Source of the DNA: Azoarcus olearius
GTDB taxonomy: Bacteria; Pseudomonadota; Gammaproteobacteria; Burkholderiales; Rhodocyclaceae
Reading direction: 5' to 3'
Assembly (NCBI RefSeq): GCF_001682385.1
Contig: NZ_CP016210.1
Span: 3,782,001 to 3,846,000 of the forward strand
DNA length: 64,000 bases
Shown here: positions 20,302-27,290 of the stretch, in pieces
Numbering within the stretch: the first letter of the stretch is position 1
How the letters are laid out: the number at the start of each line of letters is the position of its first letter
The notes under the pieces: model-generated
What the model was told of the DNA's origin: nothing
Seen by the model: the letters and a program-made list of their open reading frames with translations, nothing else
Databases searched by the model: none
Position numbers and translations under genes: made by a program

Positions 20302-23160
20302 TTAGCGCAGCCGCAGGAAGCGCGCCTCGAACTCGTCCGCCGGCAGCGGCGGGCTGCACAAGTAGCCCTGGTAGCTGCCACAGCCCAGTCCGCGCAGCAG
20401 CTCGAGCTGCGCCTCGCCTTCCACGCCTTCGGCCTGCACCGCCATGTCGAGCGCCCGCGCCATCGCGACAATGGCCGACGCGATCGCCAGGTCGTTGCTG
20501 TCGTCGGCGATGTCCTGCACGAAGCTGCGGTCGATCTTGAGCTTGTCGATGGAAAAGCGCTTGAGGTAGGCGAGCGAGGAATACCCGGTACCGAAGTCGT
20601 CGATCGCCAGCCCCACGCCCTGCTGCTTCAGCCGCTCCAGCAAGCCGACCGCATGCTCGCCCGCCTCCAGCAGGCTGCTCTCGGTGATCTCGAGTTCCAG
20701 CTGCGTTGCCGGCAAGCCGGTTTCGGCCAGCACCGTCGCCAGCATCGCGCTGACGTCCTGCCGGCGGAACTGCTCGGCCGACAGATTGACCGCGACCTGG
20801 CCGAAGGCGTAACCGGCGTCGATCCACTCGCGGACCTGCCTGCAGGCGTCGCGCAGCACCCATTCGCCCAGTGCCACGATCAGGCCGGTTTCCTCGGCCA
20901 CCGGGATGAACGCGGCGGGCGACACCATTGGTTCGCCCTGCGGTTTCCAGCGCACCAGGGCTTCCGCGCCGAGCAGACGGCCATCCTTCACGCCCAGCAC
21001 AGGCTGGTAATAGACGACGAACTCGTCGTGCTCGAGTGCCCGGCGCAGGCGTGTTTCAAGCGCCAGCCGCTCGGTCGCGGAGCGGATCAGGTCTTCGGTG
21101 TAGAAGCCGTAGGTGTTGCGGCCCTGGGCCTTGGCGCGATACATCGCCGCGTCGGCGTTGCGCACCAGGGTCATGAAGTCGTCGCCGTCGTCGGGATAGA
21201 AGCTGATGCCGATGCTCGCGCGGATGAATACCTCGTGGCCGTTGGATAGCGCAAACGGCGCCGCCAGCACCTCCACGAGGTTTTTTGCCACCACGGCGGC
21301 GTCCGCCGGCGCCTCCACGTGTTCGAGCAGCACCATGAACTCGTCGCCGCCGAGCCGGCCGAGGGTATCTTCCTCGCGCAGCGCACCGCGCAGCCGGGCG
21401 GCCACCGCGCGCAGCAGTTCGTCGCCGGCCGCGTGCCCGAGGCTGTCGTTGACCGTCTTGAAGCGGTCGAGATCGAGGAACATGACCGCCACCCGGCATC
21501 CCCGCCGCTGCGCGCCGTCGAGCGCGTGCTCCAGCCGCGACAGCACCAGCAGGCGGTTGGGCAGGTCGGTCAGCGGATCGTGGTGGGCAAGGTAGTCCAG
21601 CCGGTCCTCGGTCTGCTTGAGCTTGCTGATGTCGGTGAACACGCCCACGTAGTGGGTGACGTGGCCGACCTCATTGCGCACCGCGTTGAGCGTAAGCCAC
21701 TCGGGGAACAGTTCGCCGTTCTTGCGCCGGTTCCACAGTTCGCCCTGCCAGTGGCCTGCCTCCTTGAGCGCGGCCCACATCGACAGGTAGAAGCCGCGAT
21801 CGTGGCGGCCGGACTGCAGGAAACGCGGATTCTGCCCGACGACTTCGTCACGGCTGTAGCCGGTGACCTCGGTAAACGCGCGGTTGACCGCGACGATGGC
21901 ACCGTCGAGATCGGTCAGCACCACGCCGTCGTGGGTGCTTTCGATGACCGCGGAGTTCAGTCGCAGCAGTTCAGTGGCCTGGCGCTGCTCGGTGATGTCG
22001 ATCCACACGCCGGCGACACGCACCACGCGCCCGCCCTCGTCGCGCACCGCGCGCAGTTCATCGCGGATCCAGCGCACCCCGCCGTCGGCACAACGGATGC
22101 GGTATTCGTGGACATAGTGACCGTCCTCCTCCACCGCGCGGACCGCGCGCGACGCCCGCTCGAGATCGTCCGGGTGGACAGTGCGTGCCCACCATCCCTG
22201 CGCGAGCGCCTCGGCCACGCTGAACCCGGTCATCCGCGTGAGGTTGTGGCTCATCCACGTGCCCACCCATCCCTCTTCACCGCGGGTGAGCGTGTAATTG
22301 ACGGAAGGGCTGCAGTCCAGCACCTCCTCTAGGCGTTGGGTCATCGTCCGCAGCGCGGCCCGTTCGCGCACCAGTTCGGCCTGGCGAAACGCCTTGTCGA
22401 GCACCAGCGGCAACTCGTGCAGATAGCTTTCGTGCTTGACCAGATAATCCGACACACCCAGCCGCAGCGCCTGGGCCGCGGTCTGCTCACTGCCCTGCCC
22501 GGTCACCATCACGATCGGAATGTCGAGCCGGCGCTGCTGGCGCAGCACTTTGGTGAGGTCGAGCGCGTTCAGCCCCGGCAGCATGTAGTCGAGCAACAGC
22601 ACGTCGACGGCGCAAGGCTCGGCCCCTGACGCCGGCAGCCGGCGCAACACATCTTCCGCGCTGCTGACGGTTTCGAAGCGCAGATGCGGCGCCGAGTGGG
22701 CCAGCTGACGCAGCGTCAAGTCGATGTCGAAACGGTGGTGCTCGGCATAGAGCACGCGGATCGGCCGCCCGCGCCCGGCGACTTCGGCCTGGCCGCGCTC
22801 GATGGCGGCGACGATGGTGTGCGGCAGGCGCTCGAGGTAGTCGCCGTCCTTCACCAGATAGTCGTCGGCGCCGGCTTTCAGCGCGCCGACCGCCGCCTCC
22901 TGGTCGCCCGAGCCGGTGAGCACGACGAAGGCACCGGGCATCCGCCGTTCGCGCACCCAATTGAGCAGGTCGATGCCGCTGCCGTCGGGCAGGGCGAGAT
23001 CAGCCAGCACGATGTCGAAGTCGCTGCTGGCGGCAAGCCTGCCCATCGCCTCGCCGATGCTGGTGACGATCTCCAGCGCGAGCGCGGGCATGCCCCGCGC
23101 GAGGCTGCGCCGAAGCAGGTCGGCATCGGCGGGATTGTCTTCTACGTACAGTGCTTTCAT
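20302..23160 (-). CDS. REC-REC-PAS-PAS-GGDEF-EAL c-di-GMP turnover protein
   Basis: 952 aa from the ATG at 23160, with GGGGAG just upstream. Domain order: receiver 1 (phospho-acceptor D54, VLADLALPDG), receiver 2 (D191, LLLDYMLPG), two PAS domains (about 285-395 and 400-515), GGDEF (GGDEF at 604-608, intact) and EAL (EAL at 733-735, intact, followed by the DDFGTGYSSL loop near 826-835). An RxxD inhibitory site (R595-D598) lies five residues before GGDEF. Both active sites look competent, so it could make or degrade c-di-GMP. It is the last gene of the binding-protein/kinase/regulator operon, starting 20 bases after the response regulator stop. Confidence 0.93.
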   Translation of the reverse strand: MKALYVEDNPADADLLRRSLARGMPALALEIVTSIGEAMGRLAASSDFDIVLADLALPDGSGIDLLNWVRERRMPGAFVVLTGSGDQEAAVGALKAGADDYLVKDGDYLERLPHTIVAAIERGQAEVAGRGRPIRVLYAEHHRFDIDLTLRQLAHSAPHLRFETVSSAEDVLRRLPASGAEPCAVDVLLLDYMLPGLNALDLTKVLRQQRRLDIPIVMVTGQGSEQTAAQALRLGVSDYLVKHESYLHELPLVLDKAFRQAELVRERAALRTMTQRLEEVLDCSPSVNYTLTRGEEGWVGTWMSHNLTRMTGFSVAEALAQGWWARTVHPDDLERASRAVRAVEEDGHYVHEYRIRCADGGVRWIRDELRAVRDEGGRVVRVAGVWIDITEQRQATELLRLNSAVIESTHDGVVLTDLDGAIVAVNRAFTEVTGYSRDEVVGQNPRFLQSGRHDRGFYLSMWAALKEAGHWQGELWNRRKNGELFPEWLTLNAVRNEVGHVTHYVGVFTDISKLKQTEDRLDYLAHHDPLTDLPNRLLVLSRLEHALDGAQRRGCRVAVMFLDLDRFKTVNDSLGHAAGDELLRAVAARLRGALREEDTLGRLGGDEFMVLLEHVEAPADAAVVAKNLVEVLAAPFALSNGHEVFIRASIGISFYPDDGDDFMTLVRNADAAMYRAKAQGRNTYGFYTEDLIRSATERLALETRLRRALEHDEFVVYYQPVLGVKDGRLLGAEALVRWKPQGEPMVSPAAFIPVAEETGLIVALGEWVLRDACRQVREWIDAGYAFGQVAVNLSAEQFRRQDVSAMLATVLAETGLPATQLELEITESSLLEAGEHAVGLLERLKQQGVGLAIDDFGTGYSSLAYLKRFSIDKLKIDRSFVQDIADDSNDLAIASAIVAMARALDMAVQAEGVEGEAQLELLRGLGCGSYQGYLCSPPLPADEFEARFLRLR

Positions 23161-23180
23161 CGTCTCCCCGCCCTCGGCGG

Positions 23181-23636
23181 TCACTGTCGGGCCGGCTTGT
23201 TGAGGGCGCACCAATAGAGTTCGATCTGGCTGGCGACTTGGGTGAACTTGTCGAAATCGACAGGCTTGAGAATGTAGGAATTTGCGCCGAGGCTGTAGGC
23301 CGACTCGATGTCGGCATCCTCGTCGGAGGTCGTCAACACCACGACCGGCACCGGGCGGGTCAGGGGGTTGGCCTTGAAGGTGCGCAGCACCTCCAGCCCC
23401 GGCACCTTGGGCAGCTTGAGATCGAGCAACACCACCAGCGGCAGCGGCTCGCCGGCCGACCAGCGGGGAATGAAATCGAGGGCTTCCTGGCCGTCGCGCG
23501 CGACCAGCAAGGGGTTGAGCAGATGGCGGCGGCGAAACGCGCGCAGCGTCAGGTCAAGATCGGCGGGGTTGTCCTCGACCAGCAGGATGGAACGCTCCGT
23601 GCTCATGACCGGCGGGTCGAAAGGTTCACGCTGCAT
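23181..23636 (-). CDS. single-domain response regulator (Rcp1/CheY-like)
   Basis: 151 aa. Receiver domain with ILLVEDNPAD at 18-27, phospho-acceptor D72 (VVLLDLKLPKVPG), TTSDED near 103 and lysine in ILKPVDFDKF near 126. The long beta4-alpha4 region and YSLGANSYILKPVDF follow the Rcp1 type that pairs with PAS/phytochrome-like kinases. The ATG at 23636 has AGGA about ten bases upstream; the in-frame ATG at codon 11 has no ribosome site. Sandwiched between the sensor kinase and the GGDEF/EAL protein, and likely to relay phosphate between them. Confidence 0.88.
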   Translation of the reverse strand: MQREPFDPPVMSTERSILLVEDNPADLDLTLRAFRRRHLLNPLLVARDGQEALDFIPRWSAGEPLPLVVLLDLKLPKVPGLEVLRTFKANPLTRPVPVVVLTTSDEDADIESAYSLGANSYILKPVDFDKFTQVASQIELYWCALNKPARQ

Positions 23637-23718
23637 GCTCACAGTTCCTGCTCCCGCCGCTGCACGGCAGCGCATGGGTGAGTGGGTGACCGCTGCACGC
23701 GCGGCGCTGCCGGCCTGG

Positions 23719-26325
23719 TCATGCGGGCAGCTCCAGATGGAAGCACGCGCCTTCGTCCGGGGCGCTTTCGGCCCACACGCGGCCACCCATGCGCTGCACG
23801 GCCTTGCGCACGATGGCCAGGCCGATGCCGGTTCCGGCGTAGTCTTCCTGACGCTGCAGGCGCTGGAAGATTTCGAAGATGCGGTCGTGGAACTTCATGT
23901 CGAAGCCGATCCCGTTGTCCTGGACGCGGATATGACAGACGCCGTTCTGCTCGGCCGCCGAAATCACGATGCGCGGCGGTTGAGCGTCGCGTGAATATTT
24001 GAGGGCGTTGTCGATCAGATTGCGCAAGACCTGGGAGAGCCCTTCCGGGTCGGCCTGCACACGCAACGGCGGCACCTCCAGCACGATCTGCGCGGGCCCT
24101 TGTTCGAGTTCCGCCCTACGCTCGGCGAGTATGCCACGCACCATGTCCTGGAGGTTTACGGCGGTACGCTGCAGTGTGCGACGCTCCACACGCGAGTACG
24201 CGAGCAGGTCGTCGATCAGCCGTGCCATCTGCCGCACCCCGGTGCGGATGTGGGAGATGAAGAGCCGTCCCTCGTCGTCCAGCCGGTCGCTGTGATCCTC
24301 CAGCAGCAGGTGGCTGTAGCCGTCGATGCCGCGCAGCGGCGCCTTGAGGTCGTGCGACACCGAGTAGGCGAAGGTTTCCAGTTCCTGATTCAACGCGGCG
24401 AGCTGGGCGGTGCGCTGCGCCACGCGCGCCTCCAGTTCGGCGTTGAGCGCGCGCACCTCATCCTCGGCGCAGCGCCGCTCGGTGATGTCGGTGGCGAGTC
24501 CGGCGAGATGGAGCACGCCCCCCTCGTCGTCACGCTGCACCACGGTGCGGTCCTCGATCCAGATGTAGTGGCCGTCGCTGGTCCGGATCCGGTACTCCAG
24601 CGTGTATTCGCCCTGGCCCCCGGCGATGAAGCCGTCGACCATCTGCGTCACCTGGTCCCGCTCGTCGGGGTGGATCAGGTCGGTGAAGCGGAATGCCGGC
24701 TGCAGCATGTCACGCGCGCGGTAGCCCCATCGATCCACGTTCTCGGACACATAGGCCACGGGCCAGCCGGGGCGCGGCAGCCACCGGAACAGCACCGTGG
24801 GGCTGGCCTCGACCACCTCGGAGGCGGCCTTCAGCGCCGCCTCGTAACGGGCGCGCTGGGTGTGGTCGAGCAAGGTGCCGATGACCGCGGCACCGCCGGC
24901 CTGCTCGATCCGGGTGCCGTAGGCCTCCACCGGGAAGTAGCTGCCGTCGCGGCGGCGCCCACGGAAGGTGTACTGGACGCACTCCAGTTCGCCGCTTTCA
25001 CGCTGGCGCAGCTTTTCGGCCACCAACGGCAGGTCGTCCGGATGGACCAGCGCCGCCACCGGCATGCCTTCGAGTTCCTTCGGGGTATAGCCGAACCACT
25101 CCGCGAGGCGGGGGTTGGCATAGACCATGTGACCGCCGCGGATGAGGTAGACGCCCACCAGCGTGCGTTCGACCAGGCTGCGGAAGCGCTGCTCGCTGGC
25201 CGCGATTTCCGCCGCGGCGTCCTTTTCCTGCTGCACGTCGAAGCCGCTGCCGATATAGGCCTGCAGGCGCCCTTCGGCGTCGAACACCGGCTCGCCGTGG
25301 TCGGACACCCAGCGATGGCCTCCGCTGCGGTGGGCAAGCCGGTACTCGACCGAGAACGGCGAGCGCTCGTCGAGTGCGGCGCGAAAGGTTCGCGCGAAGT
25401 GTTCGCGATCGTCGGGGTGGATGCAGTCCAGCCAGCCCATGCCCTGGCCGTCCTCCAGGCTGCAACCGGTAAAGCCGAGCCAGGCGCGGTTGAAGTAGTC
25501 GGCCCGGCCGTCGGCGCCGGTACGCCAGATCAGGTTGGGCAGACGGTCGAGCAAACGGATGTGGTAGTCGCGCGAGGCCACCACTTCCTTCATCAGCGCG
25601 GCCAGCTGCACGCCGAGCAAACCGAGTTCGTCGGCGCCGGTTACCGGTCTCGGCAGGCTGCTGCCGCGCGCCTGCGACCGCGCGTAGGCGAGCAGCTGCT
25701 CGATGCGGTCGGTCAGCAGGAACTTGACCAGCGCCCCGATACCCAGCGAGAGCAACAGGATGGGCACGAACACGATCAGGCTCTGCCCGAGCGCCTGGCG
25801 AAGGGCACTGCGGCGCAAGGTCCGCGTGTCCATTGCCAACACCGTATAACCGGTCTGACGCGCGACTTCTCCCAGGCTGGGCAGGCGGACGGGGAATACC
25901 GCCCACAGCCGGTCGCGATCGGGCTCCTCGCGCACCTGGCCAGCAAGCGTGCGGCGCGCCGCGGTGACGAGGTCCGCCGGCGGCGTCTCGAGCCCCAGAC
26001 GGGCGAATCCGACCCGCTCGAGCCCCGGACGGCTTCCGGCCACCACCTGGTCGTCCGGCCCCACGTAGGCGGCGTAGTACAGGTGCGGCAGCGTGATCTT
26101 CTGCGCCACCAGGTGCGCGACAAAGCGCGAATCGCCCTCCACCAGCGCGGCCTCGAGATTGGCGGCCAGGGTGCCGCCGGAGTGCCGCGCCAGCGCCGCC
26201 ACCTCGGACAAGGCGTCGGCATGGTAGGTGCGCAGCATGAAGGTGAACTGGCCGGCCGCAACCATGAAGCCGAAGCCGATCAGGATGCCGAGCAGCAGCC
26301 GGCGCAGGGACAGATGGCCGCTCAC
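23719..26325 (-). CDS. membrane-bound PAS sensor histidine kinase
   Basis: 868 aa. Transmembrane segment 1 is at about 9-30, then a periplasmic domain of about 150 residues, TM2 at about 183-204 and a HAMP-like stretch. Three PAS domains follow (about 252-372, 373-495, 500-620, each ending with a DITERR/DHTQRA-like or DVQQEK exit). A coiled coil (620-650) leads to the HisKA site H658 in SVSHDLKAPLRG. The ATPase has an N box (N773), a G1 motif DNGIGF (803-808) and GTGIGL (831-836). No receiver domain is fused. ATGA overlap couples it to the upstream binding protein; the likely signal path runs to the next gene's D72. Confidence 0.92.
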   Translation of the reverse strand: MSGHLSLRRLLLGILIGFGFMVAAGQFTFMLRTYHADALSEVAALARHSGGTLAANLEAALVEGDSRFVAHLVAQKITLPHLYYAAYVGPDDQVVAGSRPGLERVGFARLGLETPPADLVTAARRTLAGQVREEPDRDRLWAVFPVRLPSLGEVARQTGYTVLAMDTRTLRRSALRQALGQSLIVFVPILLLSLGIGALVKFLLTDRIEQLLAYARSQARGSSLPRPVTGADELGLLGVQLAALMKEVVASRDYHIRLLDRLPNLIWRTGADGRADYFNRAWLGFTGCSLEDGQGMGWLDCIHPDDREHFARTFRAALDERSPFSVEYRLAHRSGGHRWVSDHGEPVFDAEGRLQAYIGSGFDVQQEKDAAAEIAASEQRFRSLVERTLVGVYLIRGGHMVYANPRLAEWFGYTPKELEGMPVAALVHPDDLPLVAEKLRQRESGELECVQYTFRGRRRDGSYFPVEAYGTRIEQAGGAAVIGTLLDHTQRARYEAALKAASEVVEASPTVLFRWLPRPGWPVAYVSENVDRWGYRARDMLQPAFRFTDLIHPDERDQVTQMVDGFIAGGQGEYTLEYRIRTSDGHYIWIEDRTVVQRDDEGGVLHLAGLATDITERRCAEDEVRALNAELEARVAQRTAQLAALNQELETFAYSVSHDLKAPLRGIDGYSHLLLEDHSDRLDDEGRLFISHIRTGVRQMARLIDDLLAYSRVERRTLQRTAVNLQDMVRGILAERRAELEQGPAQIVLEVPPLRVQADPEGLSQVLRNLIDNALKYSRDAQPPRIVISAAEQNGVCHIRVQDNGIGFDMKFHDRIFEIFQRLQRQEDYAGTGIGLAIVRKAVQRMGGRVWAESAPDEGACFHLELPA

Positions 26326-27290
26326 TCGCGGACCCCGTTGACCAGATCGGGGACCAGCAGGTGGCCCAGGGGCGGCACCTGTTCGATCGACCGCAGCGCC
26401 ACCATGGTCTGCGCCAGGCGCTCGAGGGTGGCACTCAAGCCTTCGCCGCGGCCGGCGAGCAGGCGCCGATTGGTTGCGGCGTCGGGCAGGTTCATCAGCG
26501 CAAGCGCGGCGCGGTAGCTCTCCGGCTCCGCGCCGGCCCGCGGCCCGAGCAGACGCACCGCCTCATCGGGCTGGGATAGCGCGAGGGCACGCCCGCCGAA
26601 GTAACCATTCACGACGGTTTGCAGGTCGGCACGGCGGCGGGCGAGGGTTTCGGCGCGGACCACCAGGACATCGACAACCTCGCCGGGAATTTCGGACGAC
26701 GAGAAAAGCTGGCGGCCGCCCATCGCGAGCAGGCGGGAGCGCACCGGCTCGAAGGTCACCACCGCATCCACCTGTCCGCTCTCGAATGCGGCTTCGTGGC
26801 GGTCCACCGGCAGCGGAACGATGTCGACCTCGGCAAGCGTGAGGCCCACACGCTCAAGCGCACGCGCGACCAGGTAGGCGCCCAGCGCTTCAGTCTCGAC
26901 CCCGATGCGCTTGCCCCGCAGGCCGTCGAGCCGGCGCAGTTCGCCGCGCGCGATCACCACGTCCGCGCCGTCGGAGAAGTCGAACACCAGGATGACGCGC
27001 GGCGCCTGGTCGTTGGCCGCCAGCAGGACCACCTCGTCCAGCGTCAGCGCTGCCGCATCCACCGCGCCGTTGCGAAAGGCGGTCAGCACCATCGACGAGT
27101 TGGGAAAGTCGAGCACGACGGCAACCTCGGGCGCCAGCGCCCCGGTGGCCACGGCCAGCCGCAGCGGCGAATAGCCGGGCCACAGGTTGGCGCCGATGCG
27201 CAAGGGGTCCTCGCGTAGCGCACAGCCTTGTGCCAGCGCCACCGGCAGCGCCGGCATCAACATCGACTGCAGAAAACGACGGCGTCTCAC
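26322..27290 (-). CDS. periplasmic substrate-binding protein (NrtA/SsuA-like), likely sensing module
   Basis: 322 aa. The GTG at 27290 is preferred since GGGAG lies about nine bases upstream; a TTG five codons earlier is weaker. The N terminus VRRRRFLQSMLMPALPVAL carries a Tat-like RRRFLQ motif, and a cysteine follows at about residue 23 in LAQGC, a weak lipobox. The rest is the type II periplasmic fold of nitrate/sulfonate/thiamine-precursor binding proteins (GANLWPGYSPLRLAV near 33; GKRIGVETEALGAYLVARAL near 124). No ABC permease or ATPase is adjacent. Coupled by ATGA to the PAS kinase, so it probably presents a ligand to that kinase rather than to a transporter. Confidence 0.85.
   Translation of the reverse strand: MRRRRFLQSMLMPALPVALAQGCALREDPLRIGANLWPGYSPLRLAVATGALAPEVAVVLDFPNSSMVLTAFRNGAVDAAALTLDEVVLLAANDQAPRVILVFDFSDGADVVIARGELRRLDGLRGKRIGVETEALGAYLVARALERVGLTLAEVDIVPLPVDRHEAAFESGQVDAVVTFEPVRSRLLAMGGRQLFSSSEIPGEVVDVLVVRAETLARRRADLQTVVNGYFGGRALALSQPDEAVRLLGPRAGAEPESYRAALALMNLPDAATNRRLLAGRGEGLSATLERLAQTMVALRSIEQVPPLGHLLVPDLVNGVRE

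Follow-up and report, generated by a model that had tools for sequence, protein, structure and literature searches.

An NMT1-fold solute-binding protein in Azoarcus olearius as the probable sensory subunit of a histidine kinase linked to c-di-GMP turnover

Four minus-strand genes lying head to tail from 27290 to 20302 in a 64,000-nucleotide stretch of Azoarcus olearius DNA (contig NZ_CP016210.1, positions 3,782,001 to 3,846,000; hereafter the window, whose numbering is used throughout) encode a solute-binding protein (SBP), a membrane histidine kinase, a single-domain response regulator and a REC-REC-PAS-PAS-GGDEF-EAL effector. This set probably acts as a sensor chain leading from a small ligand to cyclic di-GMP (c-di-GMP), and not as part of an importer. 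An earlier note, made from the sequence alone, had described four head-to-tail genes with these domain sets, and both the gene coordinates and the Pfam matches agree with it (NMT1_2/NMT1 in the SBP; three PAS, HisKA and HATPase_c in the kinase; Response_reg in the regulator; two Response_reg, two PAS, GGDEF and EAL in the effector). It had also pointed to the lack of an ATP-binding cassette (ABC) permease, and none adjoins the SBP gene.

The sensory role is carried mainly by the gene neighbourhoods of relatives. Of 399 genomes of the order searched with the window SBP (P0001), 203 gave matches, which range from close to distant. Neighbourhoods were collected around the 40 top matches and around 80 more found in the family and the phylum through an alignment of 31 SBPs (A1), all of them being chosen by SBP score alone with the partner gene ignored. 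The profile was built from A1 alone, because an SBP profile that was iterated came to match the PhnD-like domains present in some receptors. Where the SBP scores at least 240 bits, a same-strand receptor gene lies directly downstream in 98 of 101 loci and a permease in none. These receptors are hybrid kinases (33), GGDEF-EAL proteins (30), kinases (22), split kinases (3), GGDEF proteins without EAL (6) and fragments (4), the last mostly cut by a contig end, so that split or cut receptors account for 7 of the 98. The 24 loci below 240 bits include nine with a permease and eight with a receptor. Of 106 receptor-linked pairs, 63 have SBP and receptor genes that share exactly 4 nt, an overlap seen in none of nine permease-linked ones, and in 99 of the 106 the receptor start is at most 15 nt away. 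In the window, the kinase start codon (GTG at 26325) overlaps the SBP stop codon in a GTGA read directly from the sequence (26322..26325, minus strand), which corrects the ATGA coupling given before. Among 398 genomes sampled from the phylum, 46 hold a member of the clade at the same 240-bit threshold.

The rest of the A. olearius genome points in the same direction. It holds 10 matches to PF09084 and 7 to PF13379 (partly the same genes), together with 24 permease matches. The other strong NMT1_2 matches are grouped with a permease (1.05, 2.70–2.71 and 2.82 Mb), as is the best PF09084 match (3.94 Mb), whereas no permease match lies near the window SBP (3.8086 Mb). No orphan NMT1-type permease that could serve it was seen among the permease matches of the genome. 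A role as importer partner was rejected on these grounds and on the absence of permeases beside the close relatives. The view that the SBP would be a dedicated sensory subunit, as the earlier note proposed when it had the protein signal through the adjacent kinase, is thus strongly supported by gene context; the proposal gains further from the many relatives in which a GGDEF-EAL receptor replaces the kinase and from the effector genes found beside kinases (see below).

The SBP has been combined repeatedly with different outputs, and this is well supported. A maximum-likelihood tree built from 125 SBPs by a quick search, with SH-aLRT branch support, shows about 17 changes of the partner label between kinase and GGDEF, and the branches starred on it force at least nine changes of each label; given the quick search and some long branches, the total should be read as approximate. 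The signalling versus permease label changes only twice. In one such pair, the SBPs of L041 (kinase) and L042 (GGDEF-EAL) are 67% identical and their Cache domains 44%. The input side has changed too, as in one sub-clade (L049, L051, L056, L058, L059) the periplasmic part of the receptor resembles a PhnD-type binding protein. Each of these receptor systems would thereby contain two binding proteins, the sensory SBP and the PhnD-like receptor domain. Two further SBPs, L164 and L162, branch within the permease-linked part of the tree, yet the next gene encodes a PAS-HK-REC receptor or is a PAS gene cut short; they apparently represent a separate recruitment into signalling.

The kinase (23719..26325, minus strand) consists of a transmembrane segment, a periplasmic Cache-like domain, a second transmembrane segment, a HAMP-like region, three PAS domains, HisKA (H658) and HATPase. 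No Pfam profile matches its periplasmic region. In the AlphaFold model (pLDDT 93), the N-terminal part comprises a long helix, a PAS-like domain with five strands, a second long helix and the HAMP-like region, and its fold matches, all distant, are WalK, the LapD orthologue CdgS9, DctB and CitA. The domain (residues 30–180; 25786..26238, minus strand) may therefore be placed in the Cache superfamily at the level of fold, and it is the proposed docking site of the SBP. A reciprocal search of 151 family genomes was made with the periplasmic part only, as the transmembrane and HAMP parts could draw generic receptors. It gave 38 matches, of which 32 lie beside a sensory SBP according to a comparison of the two match tables. 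Compared pair by pair over 46 kinase loci, the SBP diverges more closely in step with the Cache part (r=0.81) than with the histidine kinase core (r=0.63), both values being inflated by shared ancestry.

Downstream of the kinase lie the single-domain regulator (23181..23636, minus strand; Response_reg E=2.9e-17; alternative start possible at the ATG at 23606) and the effector (20302..23160, minus strand), with D54 in REC1, D191 in REC2, RxxD at 595, GGDEF at 604 and EAL at 733. H658, D72 of the regulator and D54 have canonical pockets, and the GGDEF, I-site RxxD and EAL catalytic residues of the effector are present. The earlier statement that all key residues are intact thus holds for H658, D72, D54, D191, GGDEF, RxxD and EAL, but not for the acidic pair of REC2, which is E140-H141 (22738-22743, minus strand) in place of the E7-D8 of REC1. 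The second acid of REC2 is missing in 18 of 18 double-REC GGDEF-EAL proteins inspected, including ones without an SBP (among the 18 are L001, L060, L129, L147, L152–L156, L206 and L207), and REC1 is canonical in nearly all of them. The loss is thus a conserved trait, and REC2 probably works weakly as a receiver or is a pseudo-receiver. The effector scores 728 bits against the DibA phosphodiesterase model, below the cut-off of 980.

An effector with REC and GGDEF and/or EAL domains is encoded at 19 of the 25 loci whose kinase is of the stand-alone type versus 1 of 37 with a hybrid kinase, which supports the kinase, regulator and c-di-GMP effector as one unit. In 16 of the 25, the effector is a double-REC GGDEF-EAL protein, usually accompanied by a single-domain regulator, and such effectors occur in two gene orders (L060/L061 versus the rest). 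The arrangement SBP-HK-REC-REC-REC-PAS-GGDEF-EAL is kept in relatives of the same genus and family (L129, L132, L135, L147, L152–L156); the four-gene form is found within the genus (L129, L152, L154) and also in other genera.

The SBP gene itself (26322..27290, minus strand; 322 aa, GTG start) encodes a protein of NMT1 fold belonging to the sensory clade (NMT1_2 E=2e-15). Its scores exceed the Pfam cut-offs for PF09084 (34.4 bits; cut-off 20.5) and PF13379 (57.7 bits; cut-off 24.7), and remain below those of the NCBIfam importer families SsuA_fam (97.7 of 163.5 bits), taurine_ABC_bnd (34 of 304) and TIGR03427 (89.3 of 333.9). The AlphaFold model (pLDDT 93) has the TauA/SsuA fold, with TauA as best match (template modelling score 0.80). 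The N-terminus, MRRRRFLQSMLMPALPVALAQGC, carries a twin-arginine-like signal followed by a lipobox (MRRRRFLQS...LAQGC), which the earlier note had overlooked and which makes the SBP probably a lipoprotein. Its cysteine, C23 (27222..27224, minus strand), occupies a column that is nearly invariant in the 31-row alignment. This cysteine is shared by 96 of the 106 receptor-linked SBPs versus two of nine permease-linked ones (Fisher test, which ignores relatedness). In three members without it (L175, L176, L201), the N-terminal stretch resembles an uncleaved membrane helix, which would suit anchoring in the inner membrane. A relative of the SBP in a metagenome-assembled genome labelled Nanoarchaeota (L004, 7878-10357; binning unchecked) has a C-terminal membrane helix, and its gene overlaps a putative Cache-type receptor gene by 4 nt.

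Motifs common to the sensory SBPs are W37xG39, TLDE, DxSxG[AG]D and D207. In TauA, the amine of taurine is held by Glu106 and Asp205, and its sulfonate by main-chain groups including Gly79 (PMC6906117). A profile alignment, for which the TauA chain was typed by hand and agrees in the relevant part with a separate TauA chain fragment, places D110 of the window SBP on Glu106, the invariant D207 (26670..26672, minus strand) on Asp205, and TLDE (T83-E86; 27033..27044, minus strand) on the Gly79 loop that holds the sulfonate. D110 closes the motif DFSDGAD (D104-D110; 26961..26981, minus strand), in which S106, G108 and D110 are invariant in A1. Since the amine-binding acids are retained and acids are gained at the anion site, a cation appears likelier than sulfonate or nitrate. 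From these residues we guess that the ligand may be a small cation, for instance an amine or a guanidinium compound.

D104, S106, G108, D110, D207 and an acid at position 86 are also present in the importer SBPs of TIGR03427. In L212 (5295-6174), two opposed Guanidine-I riboswitches are found, one of them directly 5' of a TIGR03427 SBP gene, and guanidine is known to be imported by riboswitch-controlled ABC transporters (reviewed in PMC12186494). The genome of A. olearius has neither a guanidine-I riboswitch nor a full-length match to a guanidine or urea carboxylase. Guanidine catabolism by this host was rejected for that reason, and guanidine is for the same reason kept as just one candidate ligand. 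A broader proposal, which we consider speculative and rather unlikely, would make the clade a large unnamed family of lipid-anchored NMT1-fold sensors of external guanidinium-like or amine cations with interchangeable outputs, in which a cation, possibly guanidine, sets c-di-GMP.

Combined with the gene pairing and its conservation, the following model for the window system can be drawn. The SBP would be exported by its Tat-type (twin-arginine) signal, probably become lipid-anchored, and bind a small ligand in its cleft. In one ligand state it would dock on the kinase at its periplasmic Cache-like domain, and the signal, running from SBP to kinase, would alter autophosphorylation at H658. Phosphate would then pass from H658 to the single-domain regulator (at D72) and/or to REC1 of the effector (at D54), REC2 being probably a degenerate receiver. 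The GGDEF and EAL domains of the effector would finally change the net level of c-di-GMP.

Several observations weigh against this model. In one rival reading, the kinase senses a cue of its own through its Cache or PAS domains, the SBP being a modulator or a passenger whose adjacency reveals little of the input. Direct ligand binding is common in Cache domains, and DctB and CitA are among the fold matches. Moreover, two of the six Cache matches that do not adjoin a sensory SBP, L206 and L207, hold the kinase, regulator and effector genes with no SBP gene; in L206, the set lies beside ssb and a major facilitator superfamily (MFS) gene as in the window, with a gap of about 180 nt, as if the SBP had been cleanly removed. 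The kinase can therefore persist where no SBP is encoded beside it, and the SBP is the rule and not an absolute need. Location raises a further difficulty. In Escherichia coli, lipoproteins without Asp at position +2 go to the outer membrane. Asp at +2 is found in only seven members of the sensory clade, and the lipobox is joined to the fold by a short linker (a median of 14 residues up to WxG), so that by the E. coli rule most of these SBPs would be bound to the outer membrane by a linker too short to reach the kinase. Finally, in Pseudomonas aeruginosa, the kinase-adjacent binding protein PA0602/AgtS tested negative as an activator (PMC11113362). A kinase that senses its own cue, with the SBP as modulator or passenger, is nevertheless distinctly unlikely, as a receptor partner has been kept by almost all close relatives through some 17 output swaps and an SBP adjoins most Cache matches.

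It could also be that SBP and kinase do form a sensor, but that the regulator and the GGDEF-EAL protein mainly obey other kinases or that the main output is not c-di-GMP. The single-domain regulator could act elsewhere, and 36 of the 37 hybrid-kinase relatives have no REC-GGDEF gene nearby. The recurrence of double-REC GGDEF-EAL genes beside stand-alone kinases in two gene orders, and the relatives in which GGDEF-EAL sits directly in the receptor, make such an uncoupling quite improbable. Service to an ABC importer encoded elsewhere has in its favour that the fold and NCBIfam matches are importer SBPs and that permeases lie beside distant relatives. It is extremely unlikely in view of the permease-free neighbourhoods of all close relatives, of the strong NMT1_2 genes of the same genome that are already paired with a permease, and of the lipobox cysteine, absent from seven of nine permease-linked SBPs. 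The sensor chain from SBP to c-di-GMP is hence preferred.

The four genes lie next to uvrA, MFS and ssb genes, which were presumably identified correctly from their translations; in relatives, these neighbours are assumed from gene sizes and order, and the uvrA-MFS-ssb position is apparently shared by L001, L132 and L135. Control of the operon by a riboswitch was rejected, as an Rfam scan of the whole window gave no match. No recognizable sigma-70 promoter was seen 5' of the SBP gene, a result that is uninformative.

The pairing of an SBP gene with a transmembrane receptor bearing a periplasmic domain is that of SBP-activated receptors, which are already known. LuxP-LuxQ and TorT-TorS associate a binding protein with the membrane-proximal domain of a histidine kinase, a pairing found also in the window locus. 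These systems use other SBP families and hybrid kinases with a phosphorelay to transcription factors, and LuxQ is a weak fold match to the window Cache-like domain. In NspS-MbaA of Vibrio cholerae and Sinorhizobium meliloti, a separate periplasmic binding protein and a membrane receptor control c-di-GMP (PMC8967002, PMC9993111). Relatives with an SBP and a Cache-like-PAS-GGDEF-EAL receptor share this logic. NspS is an SBP of polyamine-binding type, and MbaA itself bears GGDEF-EAL, without any intermediate kinase or regulator. By analogy, the window system would work like NspS-MbaA and LuxP-LuxQ but belong to neither, as its SBP has the NMT1 fold and its output is a kinase-to-GGDEF-EAL relay. 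From TauA/SsuA, whose fold and two amine-binding carboxylates it keeps, the SBP differs by TLDE in place of the sulfonate loop, by its lipobox and by the lack of a permease; from TIGR03427, with which it shares the acidic and glycine-serine positions given above, by its score far below the cut-off and by a genome devoid of the guanidine markers.

The novelty would lie in the sensory clade of NMT1-fold proteins, in its size and in its repeated change of output. A literature search found no description of an NMT1-type sensory SBP; its coverage included neither the principal review of sensory SBPs nor the majority of subscription papers, and absence is therefore unproven. The clade cautions against the annotation 'ABC transporter substrate-binding protein', which is probably a wrong label for its members: in Niveispirillum cyanobacteriorum TH16, an independent annotation gives this name to a gene followed, after a 9 nt gap, by one for an EAL domain protein. 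The clade also offers a natural series in which one kind of input has been set on different outputs many times. Adjacency makes the receptor of each SBP predictable. A single ligand screen could reveal what many kinases and GGDEF-EAL proteins respond to.

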